NCBI RefSeq assembly: GCF_029633865.1
Contig: NC_079215.1
Coordinates: 49,676,343-49,740,342 of the forward strand
Length of the DNA: 64,000 nucleotides
Origin: Lampris incognitus
Lineage: Eukaryota > Chordata > Actinopteri > Lampriformes > Lampridae
Direction: 5' to 3'
The notes under the pieces were generated by a model. It was not told the origin of the DNA and made no database searches. It saw only the letters and a program-made list of their open reading frames with translations. This document shows, piece after piece, positions 15,011 to 49,500 of the stretch. Positions within the stretch are counted from its first letter, which is position 1. The number at the start of each line of letters is the position of its first letter. The position numbers and the translations under genes were made by a program.

Positions 15011-15761
15011 ATTGAGAATGACACACTCTGATGTGTGAAAAAGTTTATTATTGTTTTATTAATTCAGCATTAGAGAGAGGACAGGAAATTATAAGTAGTA
15101 ACTTCCTCCTGCTCCTTTTCGAACATATGATATTTGTTGGATTCTCTATTGAGAATTATTTTTGTTGAATTCTTCTGATGTTTGGGGTTTTTTTTAATGC
15201 TTGGTAAATTTTTTAAAATTTTATTTTGCATGTTCGAAATAAAGACATTTGAAGTGAGGTCTTTCAGTAATGACCAAGCGAGCAGTGGAGTAGCACGAAC
15301 GCTGAACTGCGTTGTTGTCACCATGACAACTAACAACAGTCGCCATTTTCTTCTGAACTACTCAAATGACCGCGGCAAACGGTTCTGTTTCCGTTCTGCT
15401 CTCATACCACTGGATCACAGGCAAAAGTCGGGCAGTATCCAAAAAAAAAAAGACAACTGATACATTAATAGAGATTACTGTTAATATTGATAGAGATTGA
15501 CGAAGAACAATTGGTGACGACTCCGTTTTCACATCGGTGAAGTTCATAAAAAAATATTTTTTTAAGTTCAGCTCTTGGTTGTATCCATAGCTCATGAACT
15601 CAACGTACAGTTGCAATCAAAAATATCCAACCCTCATTGCATATTAGGTTTATTGGCTAAATGTAAAAATTTTCAGCTGTTTGCAATAAGCAAATTACGC
15701 AATAGTTCAGTAAAACTAATATTACAAGGGTTTTATCCAAATTCAACCCAAAATGTTACTT

Positions 15762-15897
15762 TGGTAACCGGTTATTTTCTTGCCCGGTGCGGGATTCGAT
15801 ACGGAGTGCACGGCACCACAAGGCGACATCACCAACCGCTCGGCTAAAGGGTCAGACTCGTTCTCTGGGGACTAACGTGTCTTATTAGTAGTTTACA
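15762..15897 (-). mobile_element. Solo mini-LTR with tRNA-like segment
   Basis: The minus strand reads TGTAAACTACTAATAAGACA to CCGGTTACC, 136 bases, closely matching the LTRs at 48871 and 49108. It contains the A-box-like TAGCCGAGCGG and B-box-like TATCGAATCCC. It lies exactly between the tail of a SINE-B and that SINE's target duplication. AAAG on both sides may be its own 4-base duplication. Confidence 0.75.
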
Positions 15898-16235
15898 CTT
15901 TTTTTGTTTAAATTTATTTCTGATTTTCCCCTTTTTCTCCCAGTTTAGTGGCCAATCGATCCCTATTTTAGTTGAAACGCACTGCATGCGTTCACCAACT
16001 GCATCTCTCCGGCCGGCAGTCTCGAAGGAGTCGCAGACCGAAACACTGCACCCAGAGACGCATTCATATGACGAACACAAGCCGACTCCGCCCCCCTCCC
16101 GAAGACAGCGTTGCTGCTTCATCGAGTCCGACCATAGTCGGATCTGACGAGACCGGGGCCCGAACCCCGGTCCCCAGTGGGCAACTGCATCGACACAAAG
16201 CCGATGCTTAGACCACTACACCACCGCGGACCCCC
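15898..16235 (-). mobile_element. tRNA-derived SINE-B, copy 1
   Basis: On the minus strand it begins GGGGGTCCGCGGTGGTGTAG and carries GGGGTTCGGGCCCCGGTC. Flanks AAAACGTTACTTT (right) and AAAATGTTACTTT (left, beyond the solo LTR) are the target duplication. Confidence 0.8.
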
Positions 16236-48039: not shown

Positions 48040-49500
48040 AGCTGTAGCACAGCGGTCACCAACTGGAGGACTCCGGTCCAAATCCAGACCGTGAGATGCT
48101 TCCATCCGGACCGCGAAGCCTTTGACACAATGGGAAAAAAAGAAAAAAGATTGGCTTTTTTGTGTCATTACAGAGACTTTTTAAACAGGCACAACGAGGC
48201 CAGCTCAGTAGAGACGTCTGGGTCCTCGGACTACGGGTTGCTACGGTAGGTTGCTACGTACACTGTTCAGGTAGAGAAGCGCTTAGACCGAGGCATACAG
48301 GCACATTAACCTTTAATGACTCAAAAAAAACAAAAACAAAAAAACGATGGCATCAAAAAATGAGAAAAGCTGGCAATGAAAAGCTAGTCTTCAGAGATGA
48401 CTGGATAGAAAAGCACGCATTTATTCTTCCTGCTACGAGTTCTACGAGGCCTGTTTGCCTCATTTGCGCCGAGTCTGTTGCGGTTGTCAAAAGTGGAAAC
48501 GTTAAAACGTCGTTAGGACGCTAGACTATGAGACTTACCCGCATCAGCCCGAGTTAAGGACGCGGGAAATGAATGAGCTCTAAGTCCTGTATGAGCGATC
48601 TACACGGGTCCTCTCTCATTCGCCGAGAAGACAAGAGATTTAAACATAAACCTCCTTTTACATATGGGCAAATAGTGAAGGAGTGCACGGATGCCGTGTT
48701 CAGCCTAAAAGAGCGCTTTATTTAGTTTTCCTTCGAGGATGTTACATTTTTATGGACTGAAAGGAAAGCATGTACCATGGAAATTTAGAGATGAAATGTT
48801 TATTGCACTTTTTCCCCTCCATTCATCATGTTTGGACAACACAGGCACTGTATTTTTGCCTGTTTGAGTCTGTAAACTACTAATAAGACACGTTAGCCCC
48901 CTAGCTAACGGATCAGACCTTTTAGCCGAGCGGTTAGTGATGTCGCCTTGTGGTGCAATACACCCGTCTCGAATCCCGCACCGGGCAAGAAAATAACCGG
49001 TTACATTGGTGGCAGCGGTGGGATCCGGAAGTGTGCAGATCCTCAGAAGTCTCTTCGGAGCGCGGGAAGAACAAGCGCGAGGGCGCGCTTCCGGGGAGGG
49101 TGACGACTGTAAACTACTAATAACACACGTTAGCCCCTAGCTAACAGGTCTGACCCTTTAGCCGAGTGGTTAGAGACGACGCCTTGTGGTGCAGTATACC
49201 TCGTATCGTATCCCGCACCGGGCAAGAAAATAACCGGTTACAAGTCTATGAAGGATTTTGTATCTTTACCAAAGCGACCAGGAGCACAGCAGAGATCAAC
49301 GTTCAAAATCCGATACATTTTGTAAAGTATTAGTTATGTCATGCCGAAAACATCATGCTGCAAAACTGAGAACATTTTATACAGTGTTCAGTAAAAATGT
49401 TAACTAAGCTGATTTCTTTCGTCTGGATAAAGGCATGAGCTCATATTTGTATGTATCTAATTGCTCGGACTTCTGCAGGGGAGGAGGGCTGAATGCCCCT
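48040..49500 (+). mobile_element. Degenerate hAT transposon relic (BED-finger part)
   Basis: Begins with a hAT-type end (CAGCGGTCACCAACTGGAGG) near 48048. The plus strand has FRDDWIEKHAFILPATSSTR, then PVCLICAESVAVVKSGNVK, a BED zinc-finger-like segment as in GTF2I/Charlie-type hAT proteins. Many stops. It hosts the mini-LTR element at 48871. Confidence 0.55.
48871..49242 (+). mobile_element. Complete miniature LTR retrotransposon with tRNA-like LTRs
   Basis: LTR1 48871-49005 and LTR2 49108-49242 are 135 bases each, both TG...CA (TGTAAACTAC to CCGGTTACA). The 4-base duplication AGTC lies at 48867-48870 and 49243-49246. Right after LTR1, TGGTGGCAGCGGTGGGAT (49007-49024) is complementary to the 3' end of tRNA-Leu(UAG). 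The interior is only 102 bases and codes for nothing; a GGGGAGGG run near its end is a weak polypurine tract. Each LTR has a CGTTAGC..GCTAACG-type hairpin, then an A-box-like TAGCCGAGCGG and a B-box-like TCGAATCCC ahead of CGGGCAAGA. It resembles a TRIM, dependent on another element's enzymes. Confidence 0.8.

Follow-up and report, generated by a model that had tools for sequence, protein, structure and literature searches.

The 64,000-nucleotide stretch of Lampris incognitus DNA analysed here (the window) contains, at positions 48871-49242, a complete 372-bp non-coding TRIM with paired LTRs, a primer-binding site (PBS) and a target site duplication (TSD). It belongs to the Helenus type of TRIM, a kind already published and named in 2024 (Kojima 2024, PMC10886601); what is new here is a well-supported candidate for its helper, the element itself being a member, or copy, of the named kind. 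Reverse transcription of this family starts from tRNA-Leu at the PBS, as shown by cDNA fossils, and LTRs of an unlike Ty3/Gypsy-type family are repeatedly found joined to its internal sequence. We consider it likely that Helenus RNA is made by pol III, that it is packaged, copied and integrated by the proteins of this unlike element, and that hybrids between the two arise through their shared PBS; the shared particles, the identity of the helper and the pol III transcription are the parts of this account that we infer. A stronger statement, that pol III-made Helenus RNA is co-packaged with the genomic RNA, a pol II product, of one particular Gypsy family and that recurrent LTR-swapped insertions are the record of it, is put forward tentatively, with slightly less than even confidence.

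Structure of the element and its relatives in the window

The 5' LTR (48871-49005, + strand) and the 3' LTR (49108-49242, +) are 135 bp each, run from TG to CA and enclose an internal region of 102 bp (49006-49107, +), and the tetranucleotide AGTC, read from the window at 48867-48870 and 49243-49246, stands on either side as the TSD. These parts, together with a primer site, had been described in the original prediction and were all found in their places. The LTRs are identical at 121 of 134 aligned positions (90%), with two gap positions in addition. Each carries a hairpin, which in the 5' LTR has the 7-bp stem CGTTAGC..GCTAACG (48891-48910, +) and in the 3' LTR has lost its outermost pair (49128-49146, +); the pattern GTTAGC N3-7 GCTAAC was present in 66 of the 83 Helenus LTRs read. 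The PBS, TGGTGGCAGCGGTGGGAT (49007-49024, +), has 18 nt of complementarity to tRNA-Leu(AAG) and occurs once in the window at up to three mismatches, against an expectation of 0.04. A purine tract, GGGGAGGG (49093-49100, +), is a candidate PPT, although it lies 7 bases ahead of the 3' LTR and does not abut it. Short paired LTRs, a short middle, a total length below 1000 bp, TSD, PBS and purine tract are together those of a TRIM, and with the LTRs, PBS and TSD in place an identity as a SINE was rejected.

The window holds two further relatives. A solo LTR of the same family (15763-15897, - strand), approximately 90% identical to the focal 5' LTR, is flanked on both sides by AAAG (- strand; 15759-15762 and 15898-15901). 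Near it, at 16240-16150 (-), lies a tRNA-derived block that resembles a SINE and contains sequence like the A and B boxes (ggttcgggcc). A diverged Helenus-like element at approximately 45980-45670 (-) consists of an LTR pair-like repeat, 77% alike and 157 bp apart, and represents a second family, whose different PBS, TTGGTGTCAGAAGTGAGAC, we take to be that of tRNA-Leu(CAA) and whose B box reads GGTTCGCGTCC or AGTTCGCGTCC. A genome search with this second family gave 66 matches and 4132 candidates, many of them in nested clusters.

Copies across the genome

A search of the window's own genome (1.48 Gb) with the focal element gave 42 scored matches, the best of 3425 first-look candidates. Each of the 41 matches lying elsewhere in the genome was read; they fall in 39 loci and, being those most like the window copy, do not sample the family at random. 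The focal element had been regarded as a single copy, a view contradicted by the solo LTR and the diverged relative in the same window and by the thousands of candidates in the genome. An exact 4-bp TSD was found in 30 of 41 paired-LTR elements (the window copy included), a TSD with one mismatch in seven and none in four, whereas flanks cross-paired between elements agreed in 25 of 1640 comparisons; the many TSD-flanked copies that had been anticipated do exist. Within these 41 elements the LTR pairs are 90.3 to 98.5% alike, the window copy being the most diverged. Several loci are compound: one is an array of three LTRs (L010), one consists of two elements side by side (L028), and in two (L021 and L033) an extra LTR piece adjoins the element. 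As the 40 further copies outside the window are equally compact, we rejected the possibility that the element is part of a larger one with the same LTR, and the original expectation that these are not fragments of an ordinary LTR element held, the larger partner described below sharing just LTR tips and PBS with them.

Promoter-like boxes of the LTR

Both focal LTRs contain a perfect A box (TAGCCGAGCGG and TAGCCGAGTGG; TAGCC..CGG), at 48923-48933 (+) and 49159-49169 (+), with no mismatch to the consensus used in scoring. The B boxes, at 48966-48976 (+) and 49203-49213 (+), have two and three mismatches, respectively, and the box starts are 43 and 44 bp apart, a tRNA-like spacing. Dinucleotide shuffles scored as well as the focal LTRs in 1 of 2000 and 0 of 2000 cases; a two-mismatch score was also reached by 4 of 926 other 135-base pieces of the window (both strands), perhaps SINEs. 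Across the family, A and B boxes with at most three mismatches and a spacing of 43-44 were present in 81 of the 83 LTRs read, in agreement with the prediction that the blocks are conserved between copies. In most of these copies the B box reads GTATC (the commonest form) or GTCTC, which departs from GGTTC.

Within the window no tRNA was reported by ARAGORN, nor did the focal element match the Rfam tRNA model even at E values up to 10; therefore, the likeness to tRNA consists of two boxes and their spacing only, and tRNA-derived sequence, as in a Helenus LTR, was seen just in these promoter boxes. The tRNA-like block proposed as a pol III promoter of the LTR was borne out in its boxes, and the tRNA-model search suggested at the time as a check of the LTR came out negative.

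Poly(A) signals and TTTT were compared between this family and its candidate helper. AATAAA or ATTAAA occurs in 2 of 83 Helenus LTRs and AATAAA in all 10 helper Gypsy LTRs, and TTTT in 3 of 83 Helenus LTRs versus 10 of 10 Gypsy LTRs read. The focal element itself has no TTTT downstream of the A box, which is not telling because the stretch is so short and GC-balanced (the same was seen in 1472 of 2000 shuffles). Close to their start, 77 of 83 Helenus LTRs contain AATAAG or AATAAC, which might act as a weak poly(A) signal. Judged from the A/B boxes and the absence of pol II signals, Helenus RNA is most likely a product of pol III.

Another explanation is that Helenus is an ordinary pol II TRIM, transcribed from an unrecognised pol II promoter, in which the boxes are the disused relic of a tRNA-SINE. 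The absence of any tRNA in the Rfam and ARAGORN results, the weak B box and the AATAAG/AATAAC motifs (77/83) are in keeping with this, as is the comparison of the two families, in which the boxes are kept no better than the neighbouring LTR sequence: identity is 0.76 in the A box and 0.74 in the stretch before it, 0.62 in the B box and 0.64 between the boxes, and the best-kept stretch reaches from the hairpin to the A box (approximately 0.74-0.77), so that the promoter boxes do not stand out in this comparison. On the other hand, the A box is intact and the 43-44 spacing retained in most of 83 LTRs, 81 of the 83 lack both AATAAA and ATTAAA when 10 of 10 helper LTRs have AATAAA, and conservation of the boxes across Helenus families is reported in the part of the published account used here (PMC10886601). 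We regard the relic as a serious possibility, though a doubtful one, and retain pol III transcription as the preferred reading.

The primer and its read-through copies

A search of the genome for tRNA-Leu gave 40 matches, of which 11 were read, namely six genes and five partial 3' halves. Among these six genes, the PBS fits best to a tRNA-Leu(AAG) gene (L111), with an exact run of 18 nt including CCA; the two other AAG genes have runs of 13 and 10 nt and the three UAG genes of 9, 9 and 5 nt. A tRNA-Leu(UAG) primer, as originally proposed, was accordingly rejected in favour of tRNA-Leu(AAG). The loci read from a genome scan with RF00005 included genes for tRNA-Thr, -Cys, -Lys and -Ala but none for tRNA-Leu; clusters of tRNA genes (Thr, Lys, Cys) lie at G000:C12 39.64-39.77 Mb, C15 30.39-30.52 Mb and C2 37.17-37.21 Mb.

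Two of these partial matches (L118 and L120) sit in Helenus copies, where the PBS runs on into the 3' half of tRNA-Leu, up to the variable arm. Their tRNA fragments contain CCA, which is absent from the tRNA-Leu genes read. One fossil lies inside an inverted two-LTR copy (L118), whose flanks, compared by eye, are GTTG and GTTT, and the other belongs to a copy whose 3' LTR is cut (L120). The usual stop of primer copying is m1A58, and the simplest cause of both fossils is a primer copied past that stop. Reverse transcription of Helenus thus starts from tRNA-Leu at the PBS, and such read-through copies reveal the primer directly, without reliance on complementarity alone. Two other 3' halves, one without CCA (L117) and one with CCA in another context (L121), were set aside.

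A short stretch in the Helenus middle of the window, AGTCTCTTCGGAG (49048-49060), is identical to 13 bases within the variable arm of the tRNA-Leu fragment in L118, and it is at this stretch that L118 switches from Helenus to tRNA. The match was noticed after the fact; it was reached in 0 of 500 mononucleotide shuffles, and it is full only against L118, the six tRNA-Leu genes sharing 7 to 9 bases there. It may be due to chance or be a captured piece of the primer.

A candidate helper of the Ty3/Gypsy type

One further tRNA-Leu fossil (L119) adjoins an unlike LTR of 251 bp, which is followed by an RNase H stretch (PF17917, RT_RNaseH, E 3.5e-11). A search with this LTR and its PBS gave 43 matches, with the best 40 distinct places scored out of 548 candidates. 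What the Gypsy family thus defined has in common with Helenus is confined to the LTR tips and the PBS, a run of 27 bp (GGTTACATTGG..GGGAT) without mismatch, and local comparison of the two LTRs found nothing more beyond 9 to 11 bases. No A/B pair was detected in 10 Gypsy LTRs, the best having six mismatches, near the mode of random pieces (7-8).

An RT (RVT_1) is encoded 2.1 kb downstream of a copy of the Gypsy-LTR leader (C5; LTR end L172, piece L190). It lies on both sides of a stop codon and is closest, among solved structures, to the Ty3 RT 4ol8 (4.6e-29), and also to 7q5b, which makes it Ty3-type. The RT was found in one of three Gypsy pieces read; of the other two, L189 had no Pfam family at 0.001 and L191 had DUF7041 only. 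Three other 3-kb pieces (L126-L128) contained neither a Gypsy nor a Helenus LTR. In one copy (L124, in the region of G000:C10:24308388) the Gypsy LTR stands at both ends of an internal region of approximately 270 bp, with the TSD CTTA and a purine tract, GGAGGGGAGGTA; we read this copy as another miniature element, of pol II type, that derives its LTRs from the helper family.

LTR-swapped hybrid insertions

In 21 of 30 places read, the Gypsy LTR and PBS are followed by Helenus internal sequence and then, usually, by a Helenus LTR. These 30, out of the 40 scored, are the best matches to one query and not a random sample, and the last bases of the query favour Helenus slightly. The other nine (L122, L124, L131, L140, L141, L142, L145, L146 and L168) continue otherwise, and among them three further leader types can be distinguished (L131/L140/L141/L145/L168; L142; L146).

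An exact 4-bp TSD spans the two unlike LTRs in 12 of 15 testable independent hybrid insertions; two of the remaining three have one mismatch (L139 and L165) and one has no match (L147), and cross-paired flanks agree in 5 of 210 control comparisons. In this count L123 and L125, which have the same flanks, were merged, and L129, L135, L148, L163 and L164 were excluded; in L129 and L148 the Helenus LTR leads on into another PBS, and L164 is an inverted form. Insertions of the order LTR, middle, inverted LTR were seen twice, in L118 with the tRNA in the centre and in L164 with the Gypsy LTR at both ends.

The hybrids do not form one lineage. The nearest neighbour of a hybrid was another hybrid in 3 of 17 cases (shuffled mean 4.8), two of these three being one duplicated locus, and in the other 14 it was a plain Helenus copy, the plain copies having been picked for likeness to the window copy. 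These 17 come from the 21 hybrids after omission of L130, L135, L163 and L164, which offer no cleanly cut Helenus part. The reciprocal junction, with a Helenus LTR ahead of the Gypsy leader, was found in 3 of 20 Gypsy-leader places read out of 40 scored (L169, L186 and L188, the last in a tandem); the other 17 have the Gypsy LTR upstream, and TSDs are not part of this count.

Proposed mechanism and alternatives

When an LTR element is reverse transcribed, plus-strand strong-stop DNA supplies the 5' LTR of the product and the minus strand supplies everything else, and an element with unlike LTRs cannot renew that form by the standard scheme; many unlike hybrids therefore imply many events. We propose that pol III would transcribe Helenus RNA from the A/B boxes of the 5' LTR, and that this RNA would be packaged with the proteins of the unlike Gypsy-type element (251-bp, pol II-type LTRs), which would copy and integrate it, with tRNA-Leu at the PBS priming reverse transcription. 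Where one particle holds both templates, the plus-strand strong-stop DNA of one could anneal, through the PBS that they have in common, to the other's minus strand, and the product would have a Gypsy 5' LTR, a Helenus middle and a Helenus 3' LTR, or the reverse junction. The occurrence of both junction directions, with target duplications around the hybrids that begin with a Gypsy LTR, indicates that both elements are probably copied in the same particles, and it is the hybrids with matching TSDs that point to the identity of the helper.

The hybrids could also have other origins. If they arose by recombination or gene conversion between integrated copies at the DNA level, they would say nothing about particles, and some rearrangement after or outside integration is indeed evident from tandem or inverted arrays (L010, L118, L129, L164 and L188) and from the two copies that pass from a Helenus LTR into a further PBS (L129 and L148); however, recombined separate insertions should have unlike flanks, and with the same outer 4 bp at both unlike LTRs in 12 of 15 we hold such an origin to be very improbable. 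That the hybrid is a replicating family of single origin would suit the many copies of the same architecture, but unlike LTRs are not regenerated by the established scheme and in 14 of 17 hybrids the Helenus part has a plain Helenus copy as its nearest neighbour, which leaves this reading improbable as well. It is also conceivable, though rather unlikely, that Helenus is helped mainly by some other Gypsy family using this PBS and that the hybrids come from occasional mixed particles: only one Gypsy LTR family was covered in reading the users of this PBS, and three leader types besides Helenus and L124 stand behind its LTR. Against this, hybrids with this very LTR are common (21 of 30 places read) and both junction directions were seen.

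Under the proposed sharing of particles between Helenus and this Gypsy family, recognition by the helper narrows to the LTR tips, the PBS and some RNA feature not seen here. If the proposal is true, particles of LTR retrotransposons would regularly carry a small pol III transcript as a passenger and as a partner in recombination, and unknown helpers of TRIMs could generally be traced through hybrid insertions, by a test applicable to any TRIM-bearing genome.

Comparison with known systems

The original prediction knew of no named fish family with this design, but Helenus, to which zebrafish LTR-11_DR and its relatives among other Ostariophysi belong, had already been named, according to the part of the published account used here (PMC10886601). 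As described there, Helenus resembles the focal family in its TRIM size, the tRNA-like A/B block in the LTR, the 4-bp TSD of animal members, tRNA-Leu among the vertebrate primers, thousands of copies and tandem arrays; the likeness is one of design. Most Helenus families have a box A with TRGCY and YGG and a box B with GGTTC (PMC10886601, same part); the focal A box, TAGCC..CGG, fits this description, whereas the B box, mostly GTATC or GTCTC, differs from the conserved GGTTC. Transcription by pol III is the mark of a TRIMp3, and the same part of that source states that pol III function has not been validated for Helenus and proposes Gypsy elements as helpers of animal Helenus families from the likeness of their PBS (PMC10886601). 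It names no helper for fish Helenus, whereas here hybrids and tRNA fossils indicate one, and we found no report of a Helenus helper or of such hybrids in the open-licence literature.

The plant TRIM Cassandra, in the portion of its description considered here, likewise has a pol III-type promoter inside the LTR and forms tandem arrays (PMC7215508). Its promoter is that of 5S rRNA, in contrast to the tRNA-type boxes of the focal family; no Rfam family, 5S rRNA included, reached its gathering score in the window, where the element itself matched just a CRISPR-repeat model (E 5.1), and with no 5S match an identity as Cassandra or Ajax was rejected. A and B boxes at tRNA spacing are common to the focal family and to tRNA-derived SINEs, but unlike these SINEs the focal family has paired LTRs, a PBS and 4-bp TSDs, which point to integration of LTR cDNA. 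A parallel to the argument from hybrids is offered by Dasheng and RIRE2 of rice, a non-autonomous LTR element and its partner, for which, to our knowledge, no pol III-type promoter is described; chimeric copies of the two exist, and these hybrid copies have likewise been taken as evidence of the helper.
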